64,000 nucleotides of DNA, taken from positions 17,428,009-17,492,008 of the forward strand of contig NC_134517.1 in assembly GCF_027942865.1 (NCBI RefSeq). The letters are read 5' to 3'. The notes under the pieces were generated by a model that was not told where the DNA came from, made no database searches, and saw nothing but the letters and a program-made list of their open reading frames with translations. This DNA comes from Odontesthes bonariensis. Its lineage: Eukaryota; Chordata; Actinopteri; Atheriniformes; Atherinopsidae. Each line of letters begins with the position of its first letter. The stretch's first letter is position 1. Shown piece by piece: positions 19,409 through 60,535 of this stretch. Both the position numbers and the translations under genes were made by a program.

Positions 19409-19932
19409 ACGGCGATGGGTGAGGAAAAGGCAGCCTTGGCACAACGTAAACTCGCGCTTGTCACCTTCGCTCCGTAGAAGACACGCCGGATCGAGCAGAT
19501 GTAGTGAGCGAAACAATTGAGTGGACCGCAGAGGCTTCACAGGTTTTGTTAGAAATATTTCATTTCCTTCAAAACGTTGATACCAGAGAAGAAAACAGAC
19601 AAGCAAGCTGTTTTAGTTTGACACGGATCAAACAGGGTTTTTTCTTTTCTTTTCCCTTTTTCTTCTCATAAGTGGATTACGTACAGCGGAGCTCCCGGGA
19701 CAAAGAAAAAGTTCCAAAACTATATCATTTTGCCGCACAGGAGTGCGTAAAGAAGAGTGCTTTCTCGCGCAGGTTCCAACAACTCACTCTTCTCCTCAAA
19801 CCACCATATAAGCCTCTGTGGAGTGATTTGACACTTCTTTTTTAATTGGGGAAAAAAATGGATTAGAGCAAAGCTGTACTTCAAACAAACTCCAGAAGAG
19901 AGAGAAACATCTCAAGATATATGCTTTGGGGG

Positions 19933-21192
19933 ATGGCAGCAGCAACCTCAAGTCCATACCTCGCCAGCAGCAGGATTTTATCTGGCCCGGTTGTTCACTC
20001 TGATCGGAGAGGTGGCGGCATGCAGCCGGGCAGCACGGCCGTGACCACGGTGTCCGGTGGATACAGAGGGGACCCTTCGGTTAAGATGGTGCAGAGTGAC
20101 TTCATGCATGGAACCATGGTGGCAAGCAACGGGGGACACATGCTTAGCCATGCCCACCAGTGGGTGACATCGTTGCCTCACGCAGCAGCCGCGGCCGCTG
20201 CGGCCGCAGCGGCAGCAGCAGAGACCGGCTCCCCGTGGCCCCCCAGTTCCCAGCCGCAGGAGGTGAAGAGAAACACCGTCAGGGATGACCTTCACTCGGG
20301 CTCAGCTTTGCACCACAGGTCCCCACATCTGGGACCCCACCAGACGCACCCGGGAAGTTGGGGAGGCACTTCCTCAGCGCACATCAGCATCACTGAGGGG
20401 CAGCAGCAGCAACAGCCCCTCATTTATTCTCAGCCCGGCGGATTTACAGTCAACGGGATGCTGAGCTCACACACCGGACAAAGCCTCATGCACTCGGGGC
20501 TGGTGCGCGGGGAATCCCCTGAGCTGGATCACGGAAGCCATCATCATCACCACCATAACCACCACCATAACCACCACACGCACCATCACCAACATCAAGG
20601 GGTGGGCCACGATTCGCACTCAGACGAGGACACCCCGACGTCCGATGACTTGGAGCATTTCGCCAAACAGTTCAAACAGCGGCGGATCAAACTCGGCTTC
20701 ACCCAGGCAGACGTGGGCTTGGCTTTAGGCACTCTGTACGGCAACGTGTTTTCACAAACCACCATCTGCAGGTTCGAGGCGCTTCAGCTGAGCTTTAAGA
20801 ACATGTGCAAGCTTAAACCTCTGCTCAACAAATGGCTGGAAGAGGCCGATTCCACGACCGGGAGCCCAACCAGCATCGATAAGATCGCCACCCAGGGCAG
20901 GAAGAGGAAAAAGCGCACATCCATCGAGGTGAGCGTAAAAGGCGCCTTGGAGAGCCACTTCCTCAAGTGTCCCAAACCCTCCGCACAGGAGATCAATTCT
21001 CTGGCGGACACTCTGCAACTGGAGAAGGAGGTGGTCAGGGTCTGGTTCTGCAACCGCAGGCAGAAAGAGAAGCGCATGACGCCGCCTGGACTCCCGCGCA
21101 CCCCCGAGGACGCATATTCACAGGTGGGCAGCATGGGACCTGACACGCCGTCCCCTTCACTAGAGTGCAAGAGGATGTACAGCGACACGTGA
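19933..21192 (+). CDS. pou3f3: POU class 3 homeobox transcription factor Pou3f3 (Brn-1)
   Basis: Single-exon gene for a 419-residue nuclear transcription factor that binds octamer-type DNA and directs neural and kidney development. I chose the ATG at 19,933 because [10 protein letters not shown] matches the family N-terminus (MATAASNPYL in mammals); an upstream in-frame ATG at 19,921 adds only four residues. Visible in order: class III N-terminal blocks ([22 protein letters not shown]), a poly-Ala run (about 84-97), poly-Gln (157-161), a His-rich tract (203-222), the POU-specific domain (about 231-305), a basic linker RKRKKR, and the POU homeodomain (about 322-381) with [12 protein letters not shown] in the recognition helix. 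The low-complexity tracts are shorter than in mammals. POU3F3 rather than POU3F2 is indicated by the N-terminal MQPGS block and the neighbourhood. The paralogue (a or b) is undetermined. Confidence 0.95.
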
Positions 21193-26929: not shown

Positions 26930-27943
26930 CCAGCATCACTATGCAGTGGCTTAAAAAGGGGTCTTGTGCTAGAATGTGTCTACAGTCACTGAAGGAATCG
27001 GTTTCCCTCACCTGTGTCTGTGGCCCAGTTTTTGTTTTTGCGATAACGTCATAAGATGCGATTGACCTCCAAGATTTCGGCACTTTAGTCGGAAATGTCA
27101 TATACGACAGTGATATGACAGTGACAAACACAGTCACTGTGGCCATAAACCTTTTTTTTTTTTAAATCTTATTTTATCAAAAGAGAGTTTGACCTGATAG
27201 CTGACCTCCATTTAGCTGCTTCTGATGGAGCGCCCTGGCAGAGGCATTGCCTTTCGGAGCGCCTACTCCCAAAACCTGTTAGATTACGCTGTAAGTAAAC
27301 AACACACCACACACAGAACATCACGGGCAGTAACTGGGTCACCATTGCCCACCTTGCAGGACTGCATCTGATCCTCGAGTGCTGCCGTGGACAAGATGCT
27401 TCTGAACAAAGTTGCATGATCATCTCAAGTATTTATCAGGGCCGAGTGTGCTAAGCTGACAGCTGACTACACCCTTGGTGCGGTATATGAGTGTGTTCCC
27501 AGTCATATGTGAAACACTACAGCTTGGCTGTTAATCATCAACCTCTCTGAGCCAAGTGAGCAGCACGTCTCTGCTCTGTGTGGCTGCCGCTCTCAGTGTG
27601 GTGTGTCCCATGGTTTTATATAACTCCTTCAGCATCATATGAACGTCATTCCTCCTCTCATATTTGCAGTTATTACTGACTAATCATTCAGAAAGCTGCT
27701 GAACTCCTCCTGGCTCTCTGATGAGACAAACATGATTTTTTTTTTCTATGAGTATGACATGTTTATCACAGCTTCTTAAGAGACAGACGGAACATTAAAT
27801 GCCTTGCACTGCGAATTTACATCCCCATCATCCATTAGAATCTTTGAATGTATACCTTGTCAGACATGAACTTGTGTTTTCAATATTGTTTATTCAGTTC
27901 CGCAAACTGCCTTGATAAGGATTTTTCTGTCTCTCTGTTTCAG
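26930..27943. other. Upstream sequence or intron before the gpr45 coding exon
   Basis: No coding exon is recognisable. A TTAAAAAGGGG word near 26,949 could be a weak TATA element. The segment ends in a pyrimidine tract, TTTTTCTGTCTCTCTGTTTCAG, a strong splice acceptor (AG at 27,942-27,943). Confidence 0.45.
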
Positions 27944-28055
27944 GTATTGCCATGGAACACCAGCTGTTGGAAAACGTCTTAACGTGTTCACCACCACCAC
28001 AATAGTCAAATGTGTTCACCTTCGCTTGGGCTGTTATTGCTTAATTGGAGCTGCT

Positions 28056-29213
28056 ATGGCTTTTTGTAATGAAAGCCTGCTGGAGGAGTGTGACTTCATG
28101 GAGCCAGGTGTAGAGGAAGCTGCAGAAAGCCTCCCATCTGAAGCTGCGACTCCTCTCATATCAGTTACTCTGCATGTGACCCTGGCAGCCATAATGATCT
28201 TCATGATTACTATCGGTTTCCTTGGCAATGCAATTGTGTGTCTGATTGTTTACCAGAAACCCGCCATGCGCTCTGCCATCAATCTCCTCCTCGCCACGTT
28301 GGCCTTCTCTGACATCATGCTCTCTCTGCTCTGCATGCCCTTCACTGCCGTCACCGTGGCCACCGCTGACTGGACCTTTGGGAGTGGCTTCTGCCGAGCC
28401 TCCATCATGCTATACTGGCTGTTTGTCCTTGAGGGGGTGTCCATCCTCCTCATAATTAGCGTGGACCGCTTCCTCATAATTGTGCAGCGGCAGGACAAGC
28501 TGACCCCACATAGAGCTAAGCTGCTGATCGCAGGTTCCTGGGTGTTGAGCCTGTGTGTGTCCCTGCCGTCCGTCGTCGGCTGGAGGTCGGGTGCGGCAGG
28601 TATCGGCGGTGCCTGGGCGCCGCAGTGTGTGCTGGGATACAGTGAGTCTGTGGCAGACCGTGGATACACAGTTCTCTTGGCTGTAGCGGTTTTCTTTGTG
28701 CCATTCGCTGTCATGTTGTACTCCTACATGTGCATCCTCAACACGGTGCGCCGCAACACCCTGCGCATCCACAACCACACCAGTGAGCATTCCTGCCTGC
28801 CAGCCCTCAACCAAGTCAGCAAAATGAGACTCACTGGGCTGCAGCGGCCACCTCAGATCAAGGTGGACATGAGCTTCAAAACCCGAGCCTTCACTACCAT
28901 CCTCATCCTCTTTGTCGGCTTCTCTGTGTGCTGGTTGCCTCACACAGTGGTCAGCCTGCTGGCTGTGTTCAGCCGGCAGTTCTACTACAGCTCCGTCTTC
29001 TACCCCATAAGCATAGGAGCTCTGTGGCTTAGCTACTTGAAGACGGTCTTTAACCCCGTCATCTACTGCTGGAGGATCCGAAAGTTCAGGGAGGCCTGTC
29101 GGGAGTTCATTCCTAAAAGCTGCAGACTGTGTCCCAGAGTGCCAGGCAGGAGCCACAGACGAGTGAGGCCCAGCAACATCTATGTGTGCAGCGAGACCCA
29201 GTCGGCCGTGTGA
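28056..29213 (+). CDS. gpr45: Orphan G-protein-coupled receptor 45
   Basis: Class A GPCR of 385 residues encoded in one exon, as in mammals. The plasma-membrane receptor is orphan and mainly neuronal. The start at 28,056 (MAFCNES) is chosen over an in-frame ATG 48 codons upstream, because family similarity begins there and the extension runs back toward the splice acceptor at 27,943. Visible: an N-glycosylation site (N5), TM1 with GN (N58), TM2 with LAFSD (D86), the TM3 Cys113 of the conserved disulfide, DRF (137-139) in place of DRY followed by the family-specific LIIVQRQDKL, TM6 CWLP (292-295), TM7 NPVIY (333-337), and the C-terminal words REACREF and NIYVCSETQSAV, near-identical to mammalian GPR45. 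The second intracellular loop and TM2 block (PAMRSAINLLLATLAFSDIM) is also diagnostic. It is probably under RFX and neural control (see the X-box entry), which is inference. Confidence 0.95.
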   Translation: MAFCNESLLEECDFMEPGVEEAAESLPSEAATPLISVTLHVTLAAIMIFMITIGFLGNAIVCLIVYQKPAMRSAINLLLATLAFSDIMLSLLCMPFTAVTVATADWTFGSGFCRASIMLYWLFVLEGVSILLIISVDRFLIIVQRQDKLTPHRAKLLIAGSWVLSLCVSLPSVVGWRSGAAGIGGAWAPQCVLGYSESVADRGYTVLLAVAVFFVPFAVMLYSYMCILNTVRRNTLRIHNHTSEHSCLPALNQVSKMRLTGLQRPPQIKVDMSFKTRAFTTILILFVGFSVCWLPHTVVSLLAVFSRQFYYSSVFYPISIGALWLSYLKTVFNPVIYCWRIRKFREACREFIPKSCRLCPRVPGRSHRRVRPSNIYVCSETQSAV

Positions 29214-33438: not shown

Positions 33439-34323
33439 TTAAAGTGATACTTCGGAGTAGATTCACCCTAGGGTCATTTGAACCGTGACATCCAGCCAAG
33501 TAGCCCACCAGAAGTTTTTTCGATCTTGGCTGAACATCAGCTGAGTTACCGAGTTATCCCGAATAGCTTAGTACAAGCGCTAATGGAACCTGGCAGTATC
33601 TCCAAAATTACCACACTAAAATCACATGCCATGACACCAAACTTCTACAGTAGTACAAATATGGTCTGTACTCACAAAACGATGCATTTTGAAGTTTGTA
33701 CATAGTCCAGGAGTTTATTATAATCAACACAAGCCTAATAGCTTCTCTGCTGCTAAAGCTTGCGTCGACGTCACTTCCTTGATCTGGGAGCTTCAAAGTA
33801 AGATTAGGGTTGATCTACTACTGTAGACAACAAAGCAAGGCTGCTCAATTTCTCCATTGATAAAATAAATTCACAACTCTACAACATAAAAATTAATAAA
33901 AAATCATGTAGAATATAGCATATACTTTGTTGTCTACAGTAGTAGATCAACCCTCATCTTACTTTGAAGCTCCCAGATCAAGGAAGTGACGTCGTCGACG
34001 CAGCTTTAGCAGCAGAGAAGCTATTAGGCTTGTGTTGATAATAATAAACTCCTGGACTATGTACAAACTTCAAAATGCATCGTTTTGTGAGTACAGACCA
34101 TATTTGTACTACTGTAGAAGTTTGGTGTCATGGCATGTGATTTTAGTGTGGTAATTTTGGAGATACTGCCAGGTTCCGTTAGCGCTTGTACTAAGCTATT
34201 CGGGATAACTCAGTAACTCAGCTGATGTTCAGCCAAGATCGAAAAAACTTCGGGTAGGCTACTTGGCTGGATGTCACGGTTCAAATGACCCTAGGGTGAA
34301 TCTACTCCGAACTATCACTTTAA
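33439..34323. mobile_element. Palindromic foldback element, copy 1
   Basis: 885 bp with two arms of about 395 bp in inverted orientation around a loop of about 90 bp (33,836-33,925). The ends read TTAAAGTGATAC...GTATCACTTTAA-like, that is, TTAA followed by AGTGATACT(T/C)CGGAGTAG. TTAA may be the target duplication, as in piggyBac- or Kolobok-type insertion, or the outermost inverted bases. Both arms keep the same words, such as GCGTCGACGTCACTTC. There is no coding capacity, so it is a non-autonomous element mobilised in trans. A second copy lies at 39,695-40,570. Confidence 0.85.
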
Positions 34324-34960
34324 GGTTGTAGCCTGGGTGCCAGCCGAACTTAGCCACGCCCATAAAATTTTTGGTCGGGAAGTTCAGTCTAGCTCTGCTC
34401 AGTTGGGAAATCTCTATGCTTGAATTCAAAACAGTCGACCCAATCAGATTGCCAGGGCGGGCTTTATACGATGATGGACAGATGATCAACAGGGACATTA
34501 TCGACTACGTCACTAAAGAGCGCTTGGTTTGAATTTGTTTGAAACAAACATGGCTGCCGCTGGAGAGCTAGGGTGTGTAGATTCTGCCATCGAGTCTGTT
34601 CTACAGGATCTCCACATTGCATTCACTTTGAAAGACGAACAGAGGAACGCGACAAAGGCTTTTATCGATAGAAAAGATGTTTTTGCCGTCCTTCCTACAA
34701 CAAGTGTGTGTCGCTTAATCTACGTCACATACTACGTTGCTCTGATTGGTTGTAGGTCTATCCAATTGAGCGAAGAGGCATTTTTTCTCCTGGTTCAGTT
34801 GAAACACGCCCCATACTCAAAACTCTATCCAGCGGTATCAGACTCACATTCTGACTAGAATCGTGAGTATGACGTAGTCAGGCAAGCAAGGTTGTGCAGA
34901 AGTGGCTAAATCAATGGAGGGATTTTTCTAAATGCCGATGCTTTGCTCTTCATATGAACG
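34324..34960 (+). mobile_element. Transposon fragment carrying a RecQ-helicase-like 5' coding piece
   Basis: ATG at 34,550 opens a frame MAAAGELGCVDSAIESVLQD that continues LHIAFTLKDEQRNATKAFIDRKDVFAVLPT. This is the typical N-terminal edge of RecQ/superfamily-2 helicases, where a DVFA-LPTGFGKS Walker A motif follows. Here the similarity breaks exactly before Walker A (LPTTSVCRL...), and the frame runs about 50 further unrelated codons to a stop at 34,858. It begins directly after the palindromic element with AGCCTGGGTGCCAGCC, a start I associate with repeated fish elements. I interpret it as an internally deleted derivative of a helicase-carrying repeat. Outer edges are approximate. Confidence 0.45.
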
Positions 34961-39694: not shown

Positions 39695-40570
39695 TTAAAG
39701 CGATACTCCGGAGTAGATTCAACCTGGGGTCATTTGAACCGTGATATCCAGCCAAGTAGCCCACCCGCAGTTTTTTCGATATTGGCTGAACATCAGCTGA
39801 GTTACCGAGTTATCCCGAATAGCTTCGTACAAGGGTTAATGGATCCTGGTCCGTATCTCCAAAATTACCACACTAAAATCACATGCCATGACACCAAACT
39901 TCTACAGTAGTACAAATATGGTCTGTACTCACCAAACGATGCATTTGGAAGTTTGAAAATAGTCCAGGAGTTTATTATTATCAACACAAGCCTGATAACT
40001 TCTCTGCAGCTAAAGCTGCGTCGACGTCACTTCAGGAAGCTGGGAGCTTCAAAGTAAGATGAGGGTTGATCTACTACTGTAGACAACAAAGCAAGGCTGC
40101 TCAATTTCTCCATTGATAAAATAACTCTACAACATAAAAAATTCATAAAAAAACATGGAGAATATAGCATATACTTTGTTGTCTACAGTAGTAGATCAAC
40201 CCTCATCTTACTTTGAAGCTCCCAGCTCCCTGAAGTGACGTCGACGCAGCTTTAGCTGCAGAGAAGCTATCAGGCTTGTGTTGATAATAATTAACTCCTG
40301 GACTATTTTCAAACTTCCAAATGCATCGTTTGGTGAGTACAGACCATATTTGTACTACTGTAGAAGTTTGGTGTCATGGCATGTGATTTTAGTGTGGTAA
40401 TTTTGGAGATACGGACCAGGATCCATTAACCCTTGTACGAAGCTATTCGGGATAACTCAGTAACTCAGCTGATGTTCAGCCAATATCGAAAAAACTGCGG
40501 GTGGGGTACTTGGCTGGATGTCACGGTTCAAATGACCCCAGGTTGAATCTACTCCGGAGTATCACTTTAA
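39695..40570. mobile_element. Palindromic foldback element, copy 2
   Basis: 876-bp inverted-repeat element of the same family as 33,439-34,323, with ends TTAAAGCGATACTCCGGAGTAG and its inverse. Arms are about 390 bp and the loop about 80 bp. It differs from copy 1 by scattered substitutions (for example CTTCAGGAAGCTGGGAGC in place of CTTCCTTGATCTGGGAGC). No ORF. It sits between the ashwin stop and the convergent fhl2 3' end. Confidence 0.85.
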
Positions 40571-42091
40571 GAACTGGTATCCTTTGGTGATCAGTGGATA
40601 TTCAGCATGTTTGTCATCCATCCCAGTTTTTTCAGTGCTATTTCGCAGATTATTCAGGTTTTTCAGGTTTCTTGTTTTTTTTTTAGAAGATGGGGGAAAC
40701 TCGTCCTTGTGTATGTGAATAATCCAGACAAATGGAATGAAAACTACTTTTTTTTTTTAAGAATATTTATTTGTGTAGATTAATTGACTTTGCAGTTAGC
40801 ATCTTTGGTGTGTAGAGAAATGATTGAAAACACAGAAACAAGGATTTTGACTCAGTATCGTGTTTGTACCAACAGTTTTTTTTTTTTTTTAAATAAACTC
40901 TGAACACAATGTATCATCTTTTAGTTCGGAAGTCTTGTGTCTCGTGTTTAATTTACCAATGTTTCACCATTAACAGCACACAATGAAGTGTTGACGCGGG
41001 TGTTGTGGTAAAAAATAAAGAAATCTTAACACTCTGCGATCATAAGGAATATTTATATATCTAATTTCTTCTTTTTTGGATTCGCTGTTTTTGAAATAAA
41101 CGATTTTATACACAACTACAAGCCGTAAGTATTTGTAAGAATAAAGATGCAATTTTATTCTTTAAAGGCATGCAAAGCATAACACTAAAAAATAAGAATA
41201 AAACAAAACATACACCCACACCAAAGGCATCCCTTGCAATCGTGTTTTATGATCCAGTGTAAGTATGTGTTTGTGTACAAAGTGACCTCCTCTTTTCATG
41301 CATTTCCTCCTATTTTTCTGTATTGGGTGATTTTTCTTTAGCAGAGCCCCTTCACGCAGAGGCTCTTCAGACATAAGCCAATGGCAGCACACGGGTGTAA
41401 GAAAAATCTGAAAACATCGATCAGTTCCAATCCCCGTCACACTCATTCACACACCATGCTGTGGGAAAGACACAAAATTTAGATGCAGCACCCTCTCACA
41501 GCATGCCGTAGGTGTGTTTACTTGTGCTTTGCACTGTAACTGCATAGCAAAAGAACACCCCAAAAAAACAAGCTAAATGACATTTAATTAATGACATTTC
41601 TGTTTTATTGATTCCTGTGACTGAACAAGCTGTTACTTTGCAGCACAAGGGAAGAAACAGTTACTGCTCCTTTAACTGTTTGCCAAAGAACTCAGTCACG
41701 AAACCTCAATTAAATTACACCAAAAGGTGACTCCATCAACAAAGCAGCTTTACAGTCGCTCTTCAAAGCTTATAGTGTTCAAACATTAGATCTATCTGCA
41801 AATATATATATTTATTTTAAGTTCTTTACAGTCATCACTACAGCTATATTATTAGTGATATTTTTTTTCTACAAGAGTGTACAAGTAACTTGGATAAACT
41901 TTGTAAATTCAAATAACACCATTAGTAGTTCTGTAACTCATAGCTCAGAACAATGAACATTCTTGATAACGCTAACGATGCTTTAGATGCTGTGCTCTGT
42001 GTCCTGATAATATTTTCTGTATTTTTTTTTGTCATTCCTCAATCACAACATGACCATCCAGTGAGCTGCAGCTGTCGTCTTCCAGCCTGAT
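40571..42091. other. Convergent 3' region of ashwin and fhl2
   Basis: Contains AATAAA at 40,892-40,897 on the plus strand, for ashwin. On the minus strand AATAAA occurs at 41,816-41,811 and 41,609-41,604, for fhl2. The fhl2 3' UTR probably covers the part next to 42,091. No other gene is visible. Confidence 0.5.
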
Positions 42092-42243: not shown

Positions 42244-44616
42244 CTGAGGGTGGGAATCAAGTCGGAGTCAGTACAAATACTCATATGGCCAAGCTGTTCT
42301 TTTTAGGTTCAGGGAGAGCAATAATTTCTGAGTACCGCTAATTGGGATGGTGCAGGAGGCACACTTCTTGGCATAAAGGTTGCAGAAGCAGTTGAGACAG
42401 TAGGGGAAGTCATCTCTTGAGGTGAACCTCTGGCCAGACAGTTGCTGCTTGCAGCTAGTGCACAGAAAGCAGTCCTTGTGCCAGGGCTGATCACGGTAGG
42501 TCACCCCACCAGTGGTGATGGGCTATTAAAAGAAGTATCAGACTGAGTACCTCATGAGCACACGTGGACACAGCTTCTAAAGGGAGTCTTACGTTGGCAA
42601 TAAGTCGCACACCTTATGGTATGTCTTACCTTCTTGCAGTGCACACACTGCATGGCAAACTGCTTCTCATAGCAGGCCACACAGAAGTTATGGTTTTCCT
42701 TCGGGATGAAGCTCTTGGTGCCAATTGGCTGCTGGCACCTCTGGCAGGTGAAGCAGGTCTCATGCCAGCTGTTTCCCTTGTGCTCCATCTTCCTGGAGCC
42801 TGCAGAAAAGTGTGAAGAAAGTGAATGTATGATATTAAAGGACTAAGACAGAAAGAACCAAGGCTGTGACAGAATTAGAAGAACCAAAGATCTACAGTTT
42901 TAAGTAAAAGAGACGGTACACTATGGGTAATTGATGCCATTTGGGATAGAGAGTACATGTGGAAGAGCTTTAGCTCTCCTTGACTCTTTAATAATAATAA
43001 TAATAATAATATTATTCTCTCTGTTATCATCATGTATTATTATAATCTCTTACAACAACTTTTTGAAGCTATATTAAGTCAAAAGCATAACCTATAACAC
43101 TGAATCTTAAAATCCTCTGCTTTTGCTTTACTTTTATGATTCATTCACAATTCATTTGATCGTGGTGCTCTACTTTCGTGGTGCTCTTCACATGCTGTGA
43201 AGCTCAATAAAGCTTTATTTCTTACAAACGGTACATTGTTGTAGCACTTGATTTCACTTGCATGTATTCTTAGTGTTCAGCACTTTGGTCAGTACCTGCT
43301 GTTTTTAAAGTGCTTTATGAATAAAGTCAGCTTGTCTGAAATCGTTGGTTTTGGCTCTTGTCTATCCAAGATCCTCTGTTTTATAGGGCTCAGTCTGCTC
43401 TAAATAGTAAAAAAACGAGGTTGGAGCAAAATTTTTCTTCTCAGCATGCTGACCCAATAAGGAATGGAAGAAAAGTCTGGACTGCCAGTCGGGCATGTGA
43501 CACAGATCAGCATCAATGTTTTCTGTGGAGGAGCAAAGCTCCCTTTGGTGTGAAACGGAGACTGTAACTTTGCAGACCTTTCATGTGTAGCTTACTAGAC
43601 ATGAATCAGACACATTGATGGAAGGGGGGGGAAGACACTAATCGTATTGAATAATCTTTGAAGGAAAGTCTCATACTAAATGTTTTGCTTTGTTGTAGCC
43701 TTTTAGGATTTACAGTAAAGCAGATTCAATGCTACGGGCTCAAATTGTTTTAAAGGTTGTTTGCATGTTCCCACCTCCTTTCTCCTCTGTGCTTAACAAC
43801 TTGTACTACACACGTGAAAAAGGTAGGGTTGCTAATTAAAAAAAAGAATTCCCCCGGAACTGTCACTGATAAGAATACTGCCAAACATTTTGTTTACTGA
43901 GGAGATGATGCGATCGGCACAGCTTGTTTGTCCGTTTGTTAGCAGTCTTACTCAACAACTTTATTGCATTTGCATGAAAATCTTTACCAGAGTTGAGCCA
44001 TGGTGCAGCTGAAAAATGATTCTCTTGTCGATTCAAATATGTTTTTTATTAAATCTTGAAGGCTATAAATCTATCAATCCCGATCACATGAAATCAATCA
44101 GGATGCACAATTATTGCACTGAGAAAATCTCTTTTTTTTTTTCAATCTGACTTGACCCCTTTTGCATTCTCTCCCTACCTGGGATGATGGTTTTCTTGCA
44201 CTCATGGCACTTAGATGAATACTCATTGGCATAGCACTCAGTGCAAAGGAGCTGTTCATCCTTGGTGGAGAAAGGCTTGTCCACCAGGGAGCGCTTGCAC
44301 TGGAAGCACTTGAAGCAATCGTCGTGCCAATGACGGTCCTTGTAGGAGAGATCCTGCAGGGAACATCGGTGGAACAGATAAAACCAGGCTGACACAGCCT
44401 CACAACAGCTTGTATGTACAGTATTTTCTCTTATTTTTTTTTTTTTTACATTTTTTTTACCCTAGTGTTGCACCCGATGGGCTTTTTGCACTCCTCGCAG
44501 GTATTGGAGTACAGGCTTTCATAACATTTCACGCAGTAGGGATTCTCCTCTCTCAGAACGTACTTCTTGCCAAACAAGGACTCCTTGCAGTAGTGGCAGT
44601 CATAGCGCTCGGTCAT
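42092..44616 (-). CDS. fhl2: Four and a half LIM domains protein 2
   Basis: LIM-only scaffold and transcriptional cofactor, found in heart and muscle sarcomeres, focal adhesions and nucleus. Five coding exons on the minus strand: 44,616-44,461, 44,353-44,179, 42,799-42,630, 42,522-42,336, 42,243-42,092. All have GT-AG borders and compatible phases and sum to 840 bp, that is 279 residues, exactly the length of human FHL2. An N-terminal half LIM (MTERYDCHYC...) is followed by four LIM domains with CxxC/HxxC zinc ligands. FHL2 rather than FHL1/3/5 is indicated by SSWHETCF-like and RCQQPIGTKSFIPK, QLSGQRFTSRDDFPYCLNC, and the end GRGFLTERDDILCPECGKDI. The paralogue (a or b) is undetermined. An upstream non-coding exon and an SRF-type promoter are listed separately. 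Confidence 0.95.
42336..42522 (-). CDS. fhl2: fhl2 coding exon 4
   Basis: Acceptor TTTTAATAG. Encodes PITTGGVTYRDQPWHKDCF through CASCTIPIS, with donor AGCG|GTACTC (a GTACT donor, weaker than usual). Confidence 0.92.
42630..42799 (-). CDS. fhl2: fhl2 coding exon 3
   Basis: Acceptor TTTTCTGCAG. Encodes SRKMEHKGNSWHETCF through QCVHCKK, with donor AAG|GTAAGA. Confidence 0.92.
42800..44178 (-). other. fhl2 intron 2
   Basis: 1.38 kb between coding exons 2 and 3, with an AAT microsatellite at about 42,989-43,010. No exon or recognisable transposon is visible. Confidence 0.7.
44179..44353 (-). CDS. fhl2: fhl2 coding exon 2
   Basis: Acceptor TTCCCTGCAG. Encodes DLSYKDRHWHDDCFKCFQCK through CKKTIIPG, with donor CCCAG|GTAGGG. 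Confidence 0.92.
44461..44616 (-). CDS. fhl2: fhl2 first coding exon
   Basis: Starts ATGACCGAGCGC (MTERYDCHYC) and ends CNTR|GTAAAA. The acceptor TCGTAGCAG lies about 17 bp before the ATG, so the real 5' UTR is mostly in an upstream exon. Confidence 0.9.
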
Positions 44617-50305: not shown

Positions 50306-52047
50306 ACTGAAACTAATACTAGGAAGTTTTAGATTTCTAACTGTAGAGCAGTGTGTATGCAGGCTAAACAAGTTTGGTGCAGGCAGCTGGGACAAACAGG
50401 ATGTTGCATAATTTTGACTAGTAATATAGGTAAAATTGAAGTCAGATGACAACTGTCAGACAGAACAGGAATTTTGTACTAGCTCTAATGAAAAAACTGG
50501 GGGGAGATTTTATTCGATTACTCTCCTTGTAATAGACATGGGGCAATTAGTTTTTAACACAGGCGTTGTAGACAAATGTTTAAATTCAGTTTACTTAATT
50601 TCAGACATGTGGTCTAATTAATACCTCAAGAAACAAATCTGTATAATGCCCACTTGGAAAAAAATATTCTGTCCTACTGTGCTTGCCTCTTCTTCCCTGC
50701 TTTAGACTTGTACACAGCTACCCATCCTCCATCCTGCACTCTCTGGGCTGGAGCCTCCACCTCAGCTGCTAAGGCCAGGGGATAAGGATGCAGCTGTCTG
50801 GGCACTGCGAGGCTATCATGATGCTAAAGCCTAGTGCTTACACCGGCTGCAAATACAACCATGTGGAAAGGTCAAGCTAGGCAGTCCCCATCATCACTGG
50901 AGGACCATTAATCATTAATGTCACAGCAACCAATTGGATTGGAATTTCTCTTGGTCATCCAAGATCCAATATCTTCCTCTGGAAGAACATCATTGCACCT
51001 TGTGTTAATTGAGTCGAAATGAATCCCAGCAAATGATGTGCAGCGTCATGACGAAGGTCTCAAAGGGGCAGTTAGAGCCGATGGAGATGGATGGAATCAT
51101 TTGGGGCTCCCACTGTGGGAACAGGGTAGCAACCGTACAGCAGAAGCCTGTTACAGTCTTGACTTAATTTGAGCTGAGAAGTTTGATACCACTTCTATCA
51201 TCTGGTAATTACATGGCTGCAGACAGAAGTCAGTTGGCTTAGTATAGTCCGAATTTAGGAAGCAGGGAAATCAGATAGCCAGTTTTTGTCAACATTGCTA
51301 TGACAGTCTGAAATATAACATCGGATTTACTTACGGGATTTAGACATCTTATTTCATCAGTGTGTTTGGGCAACAACAAAAGGTTCAAAGCAATTTCCCG
51401 GCCAAGTCCTCCAACCTAAATGCAACTGATAAACTGTTTAAAAAGTGATGTGAAATAGCTGGGATAAAGGTTAGGTTTGGTTAAGGCACAGACATGACTT
51501 GGATAGGTGTGGAAAAAGATAAATAACTTCATAGTCATTTAAACTTTAGAGGATCATCACCATGGTCACAATACTAAACAAATGTCTGCTATGTGTGGTT
51601 CATAATGGTGCATAATGGTGTAATAGCAATCTCATCAGGGTGCAATCACTCTCAGTTTGTGTATGTTGTAATCCAAGCCGTTGTGTTATGTGGCAGATGG
51701 ACTGGCCATATGAGTTGTTGTCAGTGCACATGAGTCTATGCCATGCACGCGGGGCCAAGCACACTTTCAGATTTTTCTCCATTGAAACAAATTCTCTTAT
51801 TTGGCTGAAAAGGTTTATGTGAAGAGAGGGATAAAAGCAGCAACAGTTTTCCAAGGAAAAATGCCCAAGCTTCTTAAGTTAAGTCTCACCTTTGGTATTA
51901 TCTTTGTTTAGAACTGAGTTTTTGCTGCTCTAGTGCAACACCTGGTGGTTTTCTTAGGTTGCATGTTGCACTGTTCACCTCTGGAATTTCCATTGAAAAG
52001 AGACACATTAGGTAAGTGGTTTGAAACAGAAATGAGCGGTTGTCACA
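50306..52047. other. Intergenic DNA before the giant foldback
   Basis: No gene is visible. The part at 50,690-51,120 is balanced in composition, lacks repeats and includes an ATTAATCATTAATG word, so it could be conserved regulatory DNA. This is not demonstrable here. Confidence 0.45.
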
Positions 52048-52869
52048 TATGGAGGTAGATTTGTTTCTTTATTATTCAATCAAAAAAAAGGTTGCTTCAA
52101 TCAAAAAATATATTTTCAATCAAAAAAACCCGTTTCAATCAAAGAAAAAAAGTGTTTGAATGCAAAAATATATTTGAGACTCAAAAAAATGCATTTGAAC
52201 ACTATTTTTTTTTGCTTGAAAATGTTTTTTTTGATAGAAGTGAAGGTTTTTTTGTTTGAAGCAACTTTTTTGATTGAAGTATTGTTGTTTTGTGTTTGGG
52301 CCATATTATGGGTAGGACATTTGTGTCTTTATAATTCAATCAAAAAAGAAGTTGCTTCAAACAAACAAAAAATATTTTCAATAAAAAAATCACTTCAATC
52401 AAAAAATAAACCTTTTCAATCATAGAAAAAATGTTTTTGAATGCAAAAAAATATTTGAGACTCGAAAAATTGCACTTGAACACTTTTTTTTTGATTGAAA
52501 ATGTTTTCTTTGATTGAAGTAATCTTTTTTGTGTTTGGACCATGTTATGGGTAGGACATTTGTGTCTTAATTATTCAATCCCAAAAAAGTTGCTTCAATC
52601 AAAAAAAAAACATTTTCAATCAAAAAAAAATATTTTCAATCAAAGAAAAAACTGTTTAAATGCAAAAAAAAAAAAAAATCATTTGAAGTGTTTTTTTTTT
52701 TGATTGAACTTTCTTTTTTTTTGAATGAAGTGAAAAAAGTTTTGAAGTCGTTTTTTTTTTAAATCATTTTGACACAAACGTACCGCAGTGGGCGGGTGCT
52801 TCCCCATTGGTCAGACATGTTTGAGTGACAAGTGTCTACACCAACGACGTCTTTCTGACAAGCAAGTCA

Positions 52870-52927
52870 TGGTCGCCACTCGCCAGCGAGCCAGGAAGCA
52901 GTGGTCAGGCAGTGGTGGAGTTGTTGG
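52870..52927 (+). CDS. Mini-exon in left arm of foldback
   Basis: ATGGTCGCCACTCGCCAGCG starts a frame MVATRQRARKQWSGSGGVV that ends at a perfect donor, TTG|GTAAGT. About 60 bp upstream is an inverted CCAAT (CCCCATTGG) in CG-richer DNA, so a promoter is plausible. The same structure is mirrored in the right arm at 58,374-58,317. I do not recognise the peptide. A downstream acceptor would be needed, and the candidate CACACAG/CCCACAG sites near 53,222-53,290 are unproven. Confidence 0.35.
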
Positions 52928-53368
52928 TAAGTAGATAAAACCGTATTAAAATGATTGGTGTCACGTTATTAGCCTACTCTGTTTGATATTTCGATTAAAC
53001 ATACAGCTTGCTAACTTAGCTCACGTTGACTAATTTGTGTGATTGTGTTAGATATCTGACGCCTCATATTGTCAGGCAGGCTAGCAGGGTGCGCTAACGG
53101 CTAATTGAATTGTTTATTTCACTTAAGTAACGTTACAGAGGCTTGCTATGTGCTAGTGCTATATTGTGTTATAATACGTAACGTCATTAGTGGTCAAACA
53201 ACAGTCCACAGGCCAACTGTTGCCCACAGCGCTGCCTGTTTAGCAGCAACAGGTCATGCAGAGCCTGAGTCTATCTTCTCACACAGCCCACAGGATTACA
53301 CGACGCTGAAGTTGGCATCCGATTCGCCAGCCTCCGATTCGCGCATTAAAGGGGTGGGCATAAAGGGC

Positions 53369-54240
53369 CATTTCACTGCTTTTTTGCATTTTGATCGACC
53401 AAAACAAGGTCCTATATGGAAACTACAAAAGTTACACTGCTCAAATCTGGATGGAATTATTCTAAAGAGGCTATAGATTCATTAAAATCTTGTTTGGGAT
53501 TTGTGAAACCTTTTTCTGATTTGTAAAAATACAGAACAGGGCCATTTCACTTCTTTTTTGTTATTCTGATCACCCTGAACTGGGTCCTGTATGGAAACTA
53601 CATTACTTAGACAGCTCAAATCTTGATATAATTATTCTAAAGAGGCTATAGATTCATTAAAACCTTGTTTGGGATTTGTGAAACCTTTTTCTGATTTGTG
53701 AAAATACAGAACAGGGCCATTTCACTGCTTTTTTTGCATTTTGATCGACCAAAACAAGGTCCTGTATGGAAACTACAAAAGTTACACTGATCAAATCTGG
53801 ATGGAATTATTCTAAAGAGGTTGTAGATTCATTAAAATCTTGTTTGGGATTTGTGAAACCTTTTTCTGATTTGTGAAAATACAGAACAGGGCCATTTCAC
53901 TGCTTTTTTGGTATTCTGATCACCCTGAACTGGGTCCTGTATGGAAACTACATTACTTAGACAGCTCAAATCTGGATGGAATTATTCTAAAGAGGCTATA
54001 GATTCATTAAAACCTTGTTTGGGATTTGTGAAACCTTTTTCTGATTTGTGAAAATACAGAACAGGGCCATTTCACTGCTTTTTTGGTATTCTGATCACCC
54101 TGAACTGGGTCCTGTATGGAAACTACATTACTTAGACAGCTCAAATCTGGATAGAATTATTCTAAAGAGGGTACAGAGTCTTTAAAACACATTTTATTAT
54201 TTGTGAAAACTTTATTTGGTCATTGAAAATTCAAAAAGTT
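53369..54240 (+). repeat. 174-bp tandem repeat array, left arm
   Basis: Five units starting with GGCCATTTCACTGCTTTTTT at about 53,369, 53,542, 53,716, 53,890 and 54,064, then a decayed sixth. Two unit types alternate in part: one with GCATTTTGATCGACCAAAAC, the other with GTATTCTGATCACCCTGAAC. Confidence 0.9.
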
Positions 54241-55085
54241 CCTCTGAGCTTTCTTTCTTCTTTTCATTTGGACCATCCAAAACCAGAACCTGTATGAAAA
54301 ATGATTAAATATGGGTTTAATCATTGATCACATGATATAAATGATATCAAACACACTTTAGAATTTGTGAAACCTTTCTTTGTCCCAAAATTCACTGGAG
54401 TCCTCGCCTCTCCATGTTCATTTTAATTTCCATGAGGATCTCCTGTCTTTCACTACATAGGAAAAAGAAAAAGTTCATGCATTTTACGTCACTAACTACT
54501 TACAAGAGTCTTCTTTACTTGTTGACTTTATTATCATGTTCTTTTATCTAGAAACAATGACTTCTCTCACCTTTCTTCCATCTGCCCGTGGTCAACCTCT
54601 GCCACCGATTCAATCCGTTTCATTTTTCTGACTACTTCCAGAGCCTTTATTGTTGCCTGCATCAGACATCCCATAGTCCAACCATTAATATGCCCTATTC
54701 TGTATTGGATGCTTTGATGAAATCTGCATCACACATTTATTGCTGTCATCTCATGAATCTTTCCACTAACATGTGCTATCATTTCAGACCCTGCTTGTCT
54801 TCTCCTGCTCCCATCATAGTCATCTTACCTCCCATCTGAGTGCAGACAGGACCTTCTTCATCCCTTTATTAACACTATCTTAGATGTCTGTAAAACAACT
54901 GTTCAACATTGTCTTTGCTTTGCAGCCCTTTAGCCTATTTGTGAATGTGATAACCTGCCATTGTAATAATGAGATTAAAAACTGTCTATTTGGCTAAAGT
55001 TTGTTTCCAGTTGCCATTTTACAAGACACGTCAAGAAAATAAAAATTAATTTTATTTGACATATTTAATGTAAAATAATGGGTGG

Positions 55086-55458
55086 TTAAAGACATGGTAG
55101 GTAATCCTGTTCAGAAACACATTTTGTAATACTGGGTGAAATGGTCCGTCTATCCTGAGAGAAATCTATACAAGATGTATTTAGAAAAAGGGACGAAAAT
55201 AATCAGACCTCTGTGGCAGCTGCAGGACTGAGAAAAAGCTGACGGATTGGTCGCCTACAAAAAACCAATCAGATGCCTCTGCTTTCTGCCTACGCCCCCC
55301 TCTGCCGGCTCCCTGCTCCATGTGCGCATGCGGTTCCACCGGCTTTGGATGAAGCACTGACGGAATGGGGAGGGGGGGGTGGAGCTTAGAGGAGTGGACA
55401 CTTTCGAATCTTGCTAGCTCTCTTGCTAGCTCTCTAGGATTACCTACCATAGCTTTAA
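55086..55458. mobile_element. TTAA-ended MITE nested in the foldback loop
   Basis: 373 bp with inverted ends TTAAAGACATGGTAGGTAATCCT / AGGATTACCTACCATAGCTTTAA. It includes a short duplication, TTGCTAGCTCTC. There is no coding capacity; a minus-strand frame of 144 codons crossing its edge is composite and spurious. Confidence 0.75.
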
Positions 55459-55522
55459 GACCAACAGTAATCATTAGGTTGTGCTTACATGATTTAGAAT
55501 ACTGTACATGGACATATGTATC

Positions 55523-55919
55523 TGTTAGGATGGCCATGTAGCAGCTGGATACGCAAGGTAGGAGACTTGAGGCAGAGGTAGTGATGAACCAACCGGGTGT
55601 TTTATTCACCAACATTTACATCAATCATACACTTTAACATGGACACATACTGCGGACCAGGAGCACTGTGGTCCTAGCAGCATTCGTAGTAACAGGACCA
55701 ACTCTCTCACGTGGTCCAACTGGCAGCCTTATATCCTACTCTGGCTCCACCAACCAAACCCGTAGGGGATTCTGCTCCTCCCATTACACATCCCCATAAC
55801 AACAACACACAAAAACCTTAAAATACATTTACCCTCTATTATAAAATCAATCAATTCCTAGCATGTCTAAACAAAAGTACCAAATCTACCAAAGACTTCC
55901 CCTAACTGATTCTGGTGCA
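55523..55919 (-). mobile_element. LTR-retrotransposon LTR (Ty3-type style)
   Basis: Read on the minus strand: a G-rich polypurine run (GTAGGGGGGAG, 55,930-55,920), then TGCACCAG... through a TATA box (GGATATAAGGC, about 55,737), a poly(A) signal (GAATAAAACACC, about 55,604), ending GGCCATCCTAACA. The order of TATA and AATAAA and the TG...CA ends are those of an LTR. No partner LTR or target duplication was found, so the boundaries are a best guess. Sequence to about 56,430 may be remaining internal retroelement DNA. Confidence 0.5.
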
Positions 55920-56437
55920 CTCCCCCCTACACTAATCAGCACATGGTACGACCCGGAACCTTCAAACGCTGCAGACTGAATGTAGGGACTCTTTTGACTG
56001 AGCACCCTGGAGAGGAGACATAGGTGAATGACTTTACACACAAATTTCAGAATTCACCATTCCAAACAGCATAGTCACCTCACAGTTTATCACATCCTTT
56101 AGCTACACGTATCCTTATCACAGAGCATTTCAGGCTACTAACTGACTGGATGTTTCCCTTTACAGGCCTGGTCCCCCCTCACTCCCCGCTGAGGGCAACA
56201 CAGGACCTGCACACCCACCTGTTGTTAATATACACATTCAATAAAACATTTGACAATTTATTTATGCCACATTATTAAAAATACTACTCATGTGACCTCA
56301 AAGACCAAAAGTCAGTAATGAAGATTACCTTCATTACAGTAGCCCATTTTCCCATTGTAATTTATTTTACTCTACTCTGGAGCCACAACAACACTACACA
56401 TTTTTAACTGACCAAACTACACACTGTTCTATCTATA

Positions 56438-56662
56438 TTACAACAACTTAACAAGAAGTTTATTTCTCACTGGCAACCACTTGGAGATATGAAGAAATAG
56501 TTTAACCCAAAAGACATCTTCAACATTCCAGAAAGACAAATCTTGATTAAGTAAATGTATTTCAACCTTACATTCACAAATTGTCTGGTATAGGGTGAAC
56601 TCTAACAGCAAAATGTAATGTTTAATATCCAATTCATCAGTGCACATAACACATAATGGCAA
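56438..56662 (-). pseudogene. Unassigned frame in the foldback loop
   Basis: A 74-codon frame opening TTG and containing CTDELDIKHYILLLE and DLSFWNVEDVFWVKLFLHIS. The composition looks protein-like rather than random, and it lies just inside the right arm. It may be the last piece of the element's own gene or of a captured gene. I do not recognise a family. Confidence 0.25.
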
Positions 56663-56710
56663 AATACTACAGGTTTGATAGACGATATAATCAGGAAGTT
56701 GTGGTACAGT

Positions 56711-59197
56711 ATCTAAGATAGTGTTAATAATGGGATGAAGAAGGTCCTGTCTGCACTCAGATGGGAGGTAAGATGACTATGATGGGAGCAGGAGAAGACA
56801 AGCAGGGTCTGAAATGATAGCACATGTTAGTGGAAAGATTCATGAGATGACAGCAATAAATGTGTGATGCAGATTTCATCAAAGCATCCAATACAGAATA
56901 GAGCATATTAATGGTTGGACTATGGGATGTCTGATGCAGGCAACAATAAAGGCTCTGGAAGTAGTCAGAAAAATGAAACGGATTGAATCGGTGGCAGAGG
57001 TTGACCACGGGCAGATGGAAGAAAGGTGAGAGAAGTCATTGTTTCTAGATAAAAGAACATGATAATAAAGTCAACAAGTAAAGAAGACTCTTGTAAGTAG
57101 TTAGTGACGTAAAATGCATGAACTTTTTCTTTTTCCTATGTAGTGAAAGACAGGAGATCCTCATGGAAATTAAAATGAACATGGAGAGGCGAGGACTCCT
57201 GTGAATTTTGGGACAAAGAAAGGTTTCACAAATTCTAAAGTGTGTTTGATATCATTTATATCATGTGATCAATGATTAAACCCATATTTAATCATTTTTC
57301 ATACAGGTTCTGGTTTTGGATGGTCCAAATGAAAAGAAGAAAGAAAGCTCAGAGGAACTTTTTGAATTTTCAATGACCAAATAAAGTTTTCACAAATAAT
57401 AAAATGTGTTTTAAAGACTCTGTACCCTCTTTAGAATAATTCTATCCAGATTTGAGCAGTCTAAGTAATATAGTTTCCATACAGGATCCAGTTCAGGGTG
57501 ATCAGAATACCAAAAAAGCAGTGAAATGGCCCTGTTCTGTATTTTCACAAATCAGAAAAAGGTTTCACAAATCCCAAACAAGGTTTTAATGAATCTATAG
57601 CCTCTTTAGAATAATTATATCAAGATTTGAGCTGTCTAAGTAATGTAGTTTCCATACAGGACCCAGTTCAGGGTGATCAGAATAACAAAAAAGAAGTGAA
57701 ATGGCCCTGTTCTGTATTTTTACAAATCAGAAAAAGGTTTCACAAATCCCAAACAAGATTTTAATGAATCTATAGCCTCTTTAGAATAATTCCATCCAGA
57801 TTTGAGCAGTGTAACTTTTGTAGTTTCCATATAGGACCTTGTTTTGGTCGATCAAAATGCAAAAAAGCAGTGAAATGGCCCTTTATGCCCACCCCTTTAA
57901 TGCGCGAATCGGAGGCTGGCGAATCGGATGCCAACTTCAGCATCGTGTAATCCTGTGGGCTGTGTGAGAAGATAGACTCAGGCTCTGCATGACCTGTTGC
58001 TGCTAAACAGGCAGCGCTGTGGGCAACAGTTGGCCTGTGGACTGTTGTTTGACCACTAATGACGTTACGTATTATAACACAATATAGCACTAGCACATAG
58101 CAAGCCTCTGTAACGTTACTTAAGTGAAATAAACAATTCAATTAGCCGTTAGCGCACCCTGCTAGCCTGCCTGACAATATGAGGCGTCAGATATCTAACA
58201 CAATCACACAAATTAGTCAACGTGAGCTAAGTTAGCAAGCTGTATGTTTAATCGAAATATCAAACAGAGTAGGCTAATAACGTGACACCAATCATTTTAA
58301 TACGGTTTTATCTACTTACCAACAACTCCACCACTGCCTGACCACTGCTTCCTGGCTCGCTGGCGAGTGGCGACCATGACTTGCTTGTCAGAAAGACGTC
58401 GTTGGTGTAGACACTTGTCACTCAAACATGTCTGACCAATGGGGAAGCACCCGCCCACTGCGGTACGTTTGTGTCAAAATGATTTAAAAAAAAAACGACT
58501 TCAAAACTTTTTTCACTTCATTCAAAAAAAAGAAAGTTCAATCAAAAAAAAAAACACTTCAAATGATTTTTTTTTTTTTTTGCATTTAAACAGTTTTTTC
58601 TTTGATTGAAAATATTTTTTTTTGATTGAAAATGTTTTTTTTTTGATTGAAGCAACTTTTTTGGGATTGAATAATTAAGACACAAATGTCCTACCCATAA
58701 CATGGTCCAAACACAAAAAAGATTACTTCAATCAAAGAAAACATTTTCAATCAAAAAAAAAGTGTTCAAGTGCAATTTTTCGAGTCTCAAATATTTTTTT
58801 GCATTCAAAAACATTTTTTCTATGATTGAAAAGGTTTATTTTTTGATTGAAGTGATTTTTTTATTGAAAATATTTTTTGTTTGTTTGAAGCAACTTCTTT
58901 TTTGATTGAATTATAAAGACACAAATGTCCTACCCATAATATGGCCCAAACACAAAACAACAATACTTCAATCAAAAAAGTTGCTTCAAACAAAAAAACC
59001 TTCACTTCTATCAAAAAAAACATTTTCAAGCAAAAAAAAATAGTGTTCAAATGCATTTTTTTGAGTCTCAAATATATTTTTGCATTCAAACACTTTTTTT
59101 CTTTGATTGAAACGGGTTTTTTTGATTGAAAATATATTTTTTGATTGAAGCAACCTTTTTTTTGATTGAATAATAAAGAAACAAATCTACCTCCATA
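56711..59197 (-). repeat. Right arm of the giant foldback
   Basis: 2,487 bp, inverted copy of the left arm with three full 174-bp units (about 57,345-57,880) and the mirrored mini-exon (58,374-58,317). Confidence 0.85.
58317..58374 (-). CDS. Mini-exon in right arm of foldback
   Basis: Same ATG, reading frame and GTAAGT donor as at 52,870-52,927, with the inverted CCAAT upstream preserved. The two mini-exons face each other across the loop. Confidence 0.35.
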
Positions 59198-59805
59198 GTC
59201 ACAGTGCTGGTGTCCAGTGTTTTGTCAACCCATTCATCCACCCCTGAGTTCCCCCAGCAGGGTAACTGTATGGGACTTTAAAAGCCTTACTTCTTCCTCT
59301 GTTGTCATAATAATGGAAACTGTCACAAATGGAATTTTCTGGCACAGTGCTGTCAAACTCCTTTTTGCCTGTCAGATGCCTTTGAAAGCTATTCATTGAA
59401 ACTTAGCAGACTAATGACTTTGGTATAAACGGTTTGATTTATCTGCATATCAGCAAGAAAGTTATAAAACATACTTTTGAAAACATGAATAACAGAAAAA
59501 TACATAAAGAATTTTTTGTGTTGCGTTTGTGTGGGTGTGTGTGTGTGTGTGTGTGTGTGTGATTATCTGAGGCAGAGTTCTGATGGCATCATGTGACTTT
59601 TCATTGATTCTGCAAGTAAACAAAAAGTCTGAAGGGGGAGGTTATGGTCTTATTTGAAATGATAAATGATATGAGGAATGCTCATGTGGTAGACGAGAGA
59701 AAGTTAATTGTATAGCTGCAATGGCAAAAGTAAAATTAGCTTTTAATAGTTTTCGGTCAAAACACTGCTGCTGTGTTAAAGTGAAATGTGATGGAAAATG
59801 TGTAA
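59198..59805. other. DNA between foldback and TTAA element
   Basis: No gene. A GT microsatellite is at about 59,535-59,561. Confidence 0.5.
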
Positions 59806-60535
59806 TTAAAGGGACACTATGTAATAAATTAAGTAATTTATTAGCTAAAACCAACATATTCTTTCATAAATTAGTCCTCTTTGGTGTAAAATTATTTCTG
59901 TCAAAAATCTCAATTATCCTCCTGAGTGAAGAATAACTTGTCTGTATCTAAATAGAGCGGGCAAGCTTTATGGAGGCTGCCATGTCCGAGTGCCGAGAGG
60001 GACATAAAGCACTTTGAATCGCGTTTTCCCCAACGCCAGGCCTGGAAGCGGAAATTACGTCATTTTGACGTCACATTCGCCGAATGGCTTATTACTGGCG
60101 CTAATGGTAAATAGATTTTATCTCGTAAATTATCCCACTAATAATGCATTGATTGTTACCAAACTTCTGCCGTAGTACACATAGACTCTTAACTCACAAA
60201 ACGAGGTATTAGAAAGTTTGTAAGTTTACCGGGAGTTTATTTAAAAGAACACTTTCCAGATAGCAACTACACACTGCTGCTAACGCTACTGCTGCTAACG
60301 CTACCGCTGCGTCGACGTCACTTCCGGTATCTCCCGGAATATGACTATGGACCTTTGTATGGACCTTGAGTCTGAAGCCATAGCTTCTTGAATCTTGACA
60401 CATACCGCCTGCCGTAGTTCAAGAAGTTGCAACGCACATTTGAAAACGTGAGGCGTTAGAGAGCAAATTCATTCGACTTTGCAAAATAAAATTGCACCAC
60501 TAGATGGGGGAAGAAATTTCATAATGTCCCTTTAA
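59806..60535. mobile_element. TTAA-ended element related to the palindromes
   Basis: 730 bp with ends TTAAAGGGACACTATG and CATAATGTCCCTTTAA. Its interior (about 60,110-60,340) follows the same order of words as one arm of the 0.88-kb palindromes: TACCAAACTTCTGCCGTAGTAC, ACTCACAAAACGA, AAGTTTGTA, GGAGTTTATT, then GCGTCGACGTCACTTCC. It is not palindromic. It carries a 17-bp tandem repeat (CTGCTGCTAACGCTAC) near 60,275-60,305. Non-coding. Confidence 0.7.

Follow-up and report, generated by a model that had tools for sequence, protein, structure and literature searches.

A foldback element nested in IS3EU transposon ends: a probable two-element composite in the genome of Odontesthes bonariensis

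Transposons of the IS3EU/GingerRoot group are described as having TA..TA ends and usually 6-bp target duplications (PMC10045372). Fungal IS3EU elements have TAYGG..CCRTA ends and 6-bp duplications (PMC12730594), and fungal IS3EU families with an alpha-kinase gene opposite the transposase have been reported (PMC10045372, PMC12730594). One proposed origin of long-armed foldback elements is that the transposase gene was lost and the terminal repeats became longer (cited in PMC4079207); for Galileo, abortive gap repair and template switching have been invoked (PMC4168063). Here and below, statements about the cited papers refer to those parts of their text that were available. In our judgement, the origin of long-armed foldbacks is unsettled. 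We analyzed a stretch of 64,000 nucleotides from the fish Odontesthes bonariensis (NC_134517.1, positions 17,428,009 to 17,492,008 of the forward strand; hereafter the window), which contains an inverted repeat of 7,150 bp. This repeat is very probably a composite non-autonomous transposon, in which an old foldback sits in IS3EU terminal repeats, the IS3EU genes have been lost, and the IS3EU transposase would mobilise the product. All genome-wide searches were performed in the 945-Mb genome of O. bonariensis.

The inverted repeat occupies positions 52048-59197 of the window. An initial annotation, made from the sequence alone, had proposed a 7.15-kb foldback with near-identical arms of 2.5-2.8 kb at this place, and a repeat search combined with a global alignment of the arms bore this out. 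The left arm (52048-54885) comprises 2,838 bp and the right arm (56711-59197) 2,487 bp, and a single-copy core of 1,825 bp lies between them. The arms differ by seven substitutions, one 1-bp indel (52714) and 350 bp of length, the latter corresponding to two 175-bp units. The internal layout described earlier (motif zone, mini-exon, tandem array and inner block) was found as well, the mini-exon as a mini-exon-like sequence. Long frames that had been seen to recur on opposite strands are also present (123 amino acids, 53105-53476 and 57770-58141), but their repetition is no evidence of a gene because the stretch is mirrored. A Pfam search of two open frames from the element gave no match, and neither did an Rfam search of the window. 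No second match to the element was found within the window (blastn, E 1e-3, low-complexity filter on).

The ends of the element read TATGGAGG..CCTCCATA, that is TA..TA (TATGG..CCATA). A 601-bp end query gave at least 42 genomic matches at 100% (40 of the 75 candidates were scored). The target site duplication (TSD) was assessed in 20 complete copies, comprising the window copy and 19 short or 7-kb copies (L011-L028, L037), and 6-bp duplications adjoining TATGG..CCATA were exact in 18 of them. The inverted match of the outer ends, which the initial annotation had pointed out, was therefore retained, whereas the TA that it had taken as flank and target duplication is the element's own end, since the 6-bp duplications adjoin TATGG..CCATA. 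In the window copy the duplication is GTCACA, outside the TA. A TA target duplication, as in Tc1/mariner-like elements, was rejected.

Copies of about 17 kb share the outer ~1,250 bp with the window element, inside terminal repeats of ~2.6 kb. When the left terminal repeat of the window element (52048..53299) was compared with the two terminal repeats of a 17-kb copy, the identities were 98.0% (2 mismatches plus gaps) and 99.8%. Both ends were found in three 17-kb copies (C8, C13 and C16); L038, whose right end is outside the piece, and the loci on C7 and C24, with one end found, were left out of these counts. The C8 copy measures 16,998 bp and has the TSD GAAACG on both sides. On the plus strand, the 17-kb copy carries a transposase gene, of which five exons were read by eye. 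The hand-spliced protein of 405 amino acids matched the Pfam family rva_4 with E=2.5e-73, and a search of solved structures with it gave no match. Five loci have an open transposase frame, with a last exon that is 98-100% identical and without stops. On the minus strand (L009/L010, C16:38058511-38075542), an apparent second multi-exon gene lies opposite the transposase. Its hand-joined protein is weakly HECT-like (Pfam E=0.0063, below the cut-off; PDB matches to Rsp5 with E 0.88 and 1.2), its single frames gave no HECT match in Pfam, and no literature linking IS3EU with HECT was found. The mirrored terminal repeats could give both genes the same promoter and exon to start from. The outer ~1.25 kb of both arms belongs to IS3EU/GingerRoot, judged by its ends, the 6-bp TSDs and the integrase-type (rva_4) transposase that the 17-kb copies encode.

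Beyond arm base 1252, no match longer than 100 bp was found between the window element and the 17-kb copy. Part of the core (55470-56710) has at least 40 genomic copies with identities of 97-100%, and the older of the core copies, 97-99% identical, pointed to loci where other DNA adjoins the inner part. The exact inner terminus ACGACGCTGAAGTTGGCATCC occurs 419 times in the genome, 211 times forward and 208 times reverse, compared to 0 for the control; the ends of the inner foldback carry ACGACGCTGAAG. Solo foldbacks on C19 and C12, in which both ends were read, are bordered by the perfect 9-bp duplications ACAGGAAGT and ATGCTGCTC. Eight further solo pairs, inward-facing and outside composites, were chosen by eye among the matches listed; seven of them had perfect 9-bp duplications and one had a single mismatch. 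All solos outside IS3EU taken together, the 9-bp TSD was exact in 9/10, one of these in a CTT repeat, and the ten foldbacks span 397 bp to 8.1 kb. L041, L044, L049 and the right sides of L039 and L040 were left out, as no inner terminus was present in the piece. Because the solo copies have exact termini and 9-bp duplications of their own, the segment 53300-57946 is an independent foldback element, older than the composite and nested in IS3EU ends. What had been described as one element is accordingly read as two, one nested in the other and of a different kind. The inner element has long inverted arms with internal tandem repeats, as in foldbacks. Mutator/FB-like foldbacks generate target duplications of 8-11 bp, and by TSD length and layout the inner element would be labelled Mutator/FB-like.

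In the composite, the inner element is flanked by CAGGATTAC and GTAATCCTG, which are reverse complements of each other, and the 9-bp duplication is missing. A simple foldback insertion would repeat 9 bp on both sides; a foldback landing in one terminal repeat would thus leave the duplication CAGGATTAC or CTATGTCAG on both sides. Both junctions were present in all 18 of the 7-kb copies checked. The exact junction, CAGGATTAC followed directly by ACGA, was found 53 times genome-wide, as 26 mirrored pairs and one single (C15), in a search that would miss mutated junctions. Hence 26 of the 27 exact-junction loci, on 16 contigs, are mirrored. The uninterrupted IS3EU site, CACAGGATTAC joined to AGCTATTTGACCG, was found 10 times: nine times in five transposase-bearing loci and once beside the C15 single. 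The C15 copy (22309983-22316608, 6-bp TSD GACTGT) differs from the others in that the foldback meets the terminal repeat at offsets 1272 and 1477 (L009 numbering), both at exact foldback ends. These offsets are most simply explained by foldbacks having landed at more than one position within such terminal repeats.

The initial annotation had allowed for a single-locus artefact or for arms with no other copies; the same structure was found elsewhere in the genome, surrounded by other flanking DNA. Assembly is difficult where long arms are nearly identical, and two 17-kb copies lack TSDs, both of which would suit an assembly artefact or a segmental inversion of host DNA. The mirrored loci on 16 contigs, and distinct flanks with exact 6-bp TSDs in 18/20 copies, leave this explanation with a negligible probability.

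The inner foldback was also found behind another end, TATGGAGAGAGATTAGTC, which was read directly in L040, C4 and C26. The 743-bp flank of this second family, also matched on C20, C2 and C3, shows no BLAST similarity to the flank of the first family. Six-bp duplications were present in both second-family copies tested, and the junctions were mirrored and lacked the 9-bp duplication in 5/5 pairs tested. Genome-wide, the exact junction of the second family occurs 41 times; these include 12 pairs within 12 kb, and 17 junctions are left without an exact partner at that distance. The sequence of second-family copies has a deletion of ~8 bp near the inner end, which fits separate captures. Two IS3EU families thus appear to carry the same foldback, mirrored alike. 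Could a short IS3EU derivative that was palindromic beforehand simply have received the foldback at its centre by transposition? Short IS3EU derivatives with facing arms do exist (L024, 1,680 bp; L025, 1,898 bp), but their arms stop at ~750-930 bp and not at 1252. In addition, the expected 9-bp duplication is missing and the flanks are mirrored in both families, and the two C15 offsets do not agree with a single central insertion. We therefore consider simple transposition unlikely.

The composite appears to have been amplified recently: the 17 full copies show a mean pairwise difference of 0.18% outside the arrays, a value biased to young copies, as they were chosen by exact end matches. The extreme conservation of the outer 600 bp was left uninterpreted, since the copies were chosen by exact matches there. 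Three outer-arm substitutions were found in more than one arm. Two of them occur in both arms together (16/17 and 17/17 copies), and the third is restricted to the right arm, in two copies. A 683-bp insertion of a long interspersed nuclear element (LINE) with a 12-bp duplication, read by eye, is located at arm position ~1637 in the 175-bp array, in the left arm of L013 and in the right arm of L012 (sides relative to the core). The two insertions (CCATCC...) are 5 differences apart, and we take them to be LINE-like of the Rex1 type. The alleles common to both arms and the LINE on opposite arms indicate that the arms exchange sequence. In old copies, the arm identity was 93.3% over ~1.5 kb (L039) and 98.8% over 415 comparable bp (L040); L039 shows that conversion leaves at least some resting copies with differing arms. 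Of the two causes suggested earlier for the near-identity of the arms, recent insertion and ongoing arm-to-arm conversion, recency and exchange between arms were both supported, but ongoing conversion in place is not needed. The orientation of the core (9 forward and 8 reverse, n=17) was also considered as a sign of loop inversion and rejected as such: with symmetric ends, it reflects only the orientation of insertion.

Exchange between arms, and changes of array number in 175-bp steps, would also be compatible with a single foldback of one superfamily, whose arms were lengthened by arm conversion and whose inner part is merely a non-autonomous IS3EU lineage. The presence of both junctions in every checked 7-kb copy agrees with such an origin, as does an unexplained 40-bp match of 87.5% between the start of the inner element (window 53300-53339) and the interior of the 17-kb copy (L009 ~6894-6933). 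However, solo inner elements exist, complete with exact ends and 9-bp TSDs, and the inner part is also found in a second IS3EU family with arms that have no BLAST similarity to the first. A single-element origin is thus very improbable.

For the preferred reading, a composite of two transposons, we propose the following route. An old foldback, with its 9-bp duplication and with arrays in its arms, would insert into an IS3EU element of ~17 kb, within its terminal repeats of ~2.6 kb. Since the foldback is palindromic, two foldbacks in opposite terminal repeats would act as direct repeats, and recombination between these inner copies would delete the IS3EU genes, leaving an IS3EU end, a foldback and an IS3EU end. 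If both foldbacks had the same landing site, for example via conversion between the terminal repeats, the junctions would be mirrored; different sites would give offset junctions, as in C15. Alternatively, mirrored junctions would also arise by inverted-donor gap repair starting from a single inserted foldback. We favor recombination, a route that we infer, because it would explain both mirrored and offset junctions. As the composite keeps the IS3EU ends, the transposase of surviving 17-kb copies could then move it in trans into 6-bp targets. The data themselves show what the two elements are, at the level of termini and TSDs, and how they are joined; they also show that 17-kb copies sharing these ends bear a transposase, and that the composites are recent.

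Several observations weigh against the composite reading. Two of the complete copies deviate in their TSDs, L011 with 5/6 matching bases and L025 with none. The 17-kb copies at C13:27507267-27524293 and on C16 have intact ends without a 6-bp duplication, possibly owing to recombination between copies or to assembly joins. The 40-bp match to the 17-kb interior and the bias of the 0.18% value to young copies belong here as well. Finally, the predicted precursor, a full-length IS3EU with the foldback in one terminal repeat, was not seen, although no direct search for it was made.

In more general terms, foldbacks might serve as recombination adaptors: by inserting into long terminal repeats that belong to an unrelated transposon, they would collapse this host transposon to a short mirror element that retains the mobile ends and has the foldback as cargo, and an old family would ride a new transposase. 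This would have happened at least twice here, in two IS3EU families, with a further landing site in C15. We give this generalization an even chance. One genome displays the parts: solo foldbacks that have duplications of their own, intact IS3EU elements in which the site is unbroken, and composites, which are symmetric in two families and asymmetric in one copy. The formation of composite foldbacks thereby becomes directly testable, and the parts hint at the way in which a transposon family may regain mobility through another one.

Table 1. Features of the composite element (window positions).
Feature	Position	Strand	Basis or remarks
6-bp TSD, left, GTCACA	52042..52047	.	Exact in 18/20 complete short and 7-kb copies
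Terminal repeat assigned to IS3EU, left	52048..53299	+	TATGG end, AT-rich subterminal zone, promoter-like stretch, mini-exon-like sequence
Subterminal zone, AT-rich, three ~250-bp blocks	52048..52775	+	Blocks 2 and 3 start with TATGGG version of end
Mini-exon-like sequence (putative), ATG start, then GTAAGT	52869..52926	+	Sequence; mirrored in right arm
Inner foldback element, 4,647 bp	53300..57946	.	Terminus ACGACGCTGAAGTTGGCATCC; one substitution at right end
175-bp tandem array, left, about 5 units	53364..54213	+	Repeat search
Inner block of foldback, left arm	54214..54885	+	Arm alignment
Single-copy core (middle domain)	54886..56710	.	Arm alignment
Nested short element, TTAA-bounded	55086..55458	.	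Inside core; present in 8/17 copies, absent in 9/17
Inner block of foldback, right arm	56711..57382	-	Arm alignment
175-bp tandem array, right, about 3 units	57383..57882	-	Repeat search
Terminal repeat assigned to IS3EU, right	57947..59197	-	Mirrors left one (one 1-bp indel) up to start base of inner element
6-bp TSD, right, GTCACA	59198..59203	.	Flank comparison

The subterminal zone (Table 1) contains TTCAATCAAA-type motifs in both orientations, which are possible transposase sites. The G of the GT behind the mini-exon-like sequence (52927) is replaced by T in both arms of 7/17 copies, removing the GT; this is one of the two outer-arm substitutions that both arms have in common. Among the 17 copies, the 175-bp array varies from 2 to 6 units per arm, and the empty site of the TTAA-bounded short element is visible in L011. 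Miniature inner foldbacks of 397-475 bp were observed at G000:C1:28914-29310, C1:45852685-45853118 and C4:1542665-1543139; their 9-bp duplications are exact in two cases and have one mismatch in G000:C1:28914-29310. Elsewhere in the window, repeats of ~890 bp (33439-34324 and 39695-40571, weakly 60080-60244) match each other in both orientations with 92% and 88%; the first two are taken to be another palindromic element family. Host exons recognized by eye in the list of open reading frames belong to a POU-domain factor (19867-21192, plus strand), a seven-transmembrane receptor (27870-29213, plus strand) and a LIM-domain protein (44111-44461, minus strand).

Among the papers listed in a literature search, none was found on an IS3EU foldback or on a foldback riding IS3EU ends in two families; the one listed for IS3EU together with foldbacks concerns oyster satellites. 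The initial annotation knew no named family with this layout and considered the element a candidate for an undescribed one. This does not hold for the outer part, which fits IS3EU/GingerRoot, nor for the layout, which parallels Tetris; the composite of two superfamilies appears to be new, and both sequences may already be present in Repbase/Dfam under IS3EU or unclassified names. Like the described IS3EU/GingerRoot elements, our family has TA..TA ends, 6-bp TSDs and, in its 17-kb copies, an integrase-type transposase, apparently with a second gene opposite to it. Unlike them, the window copy lacks a transposase and holds a second transposon within its arms, and the second gene of the 17-kb copies is weakly HECT-like. 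The architecture resembles that of Tetris, a foldback of Drosophila virilis with a flanking domain, tandem repeats of ~220 bp, an inner domain and a variable middle (PMC4079207). Tetris, in contrast, has 8-10-bp duplications, and its authors suggested Mutator and found no autonomous partner (PMC4079207), whereas here IS3EU supplies the flanking domain, and the genome contains copies that share these ends and bear a transposase. Galileo, a foldback-like member of the P superfamily, shares the long inverted repeats and the structural variety, but belongs to another superfamily and is treated in the available text as one transposon and not as a fusion of two kinds (PMC4168063). A further parallel is offered by FB4 and the FoSTeST Pack-TIRs, in which repetitive foldback arms are sites of rearrangement and template switching that build chimeric mobile units (PMC8277862). 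There, the foldback carries a host gene (PMC8277862), while here the foldback itself is the cargo of another transposon.

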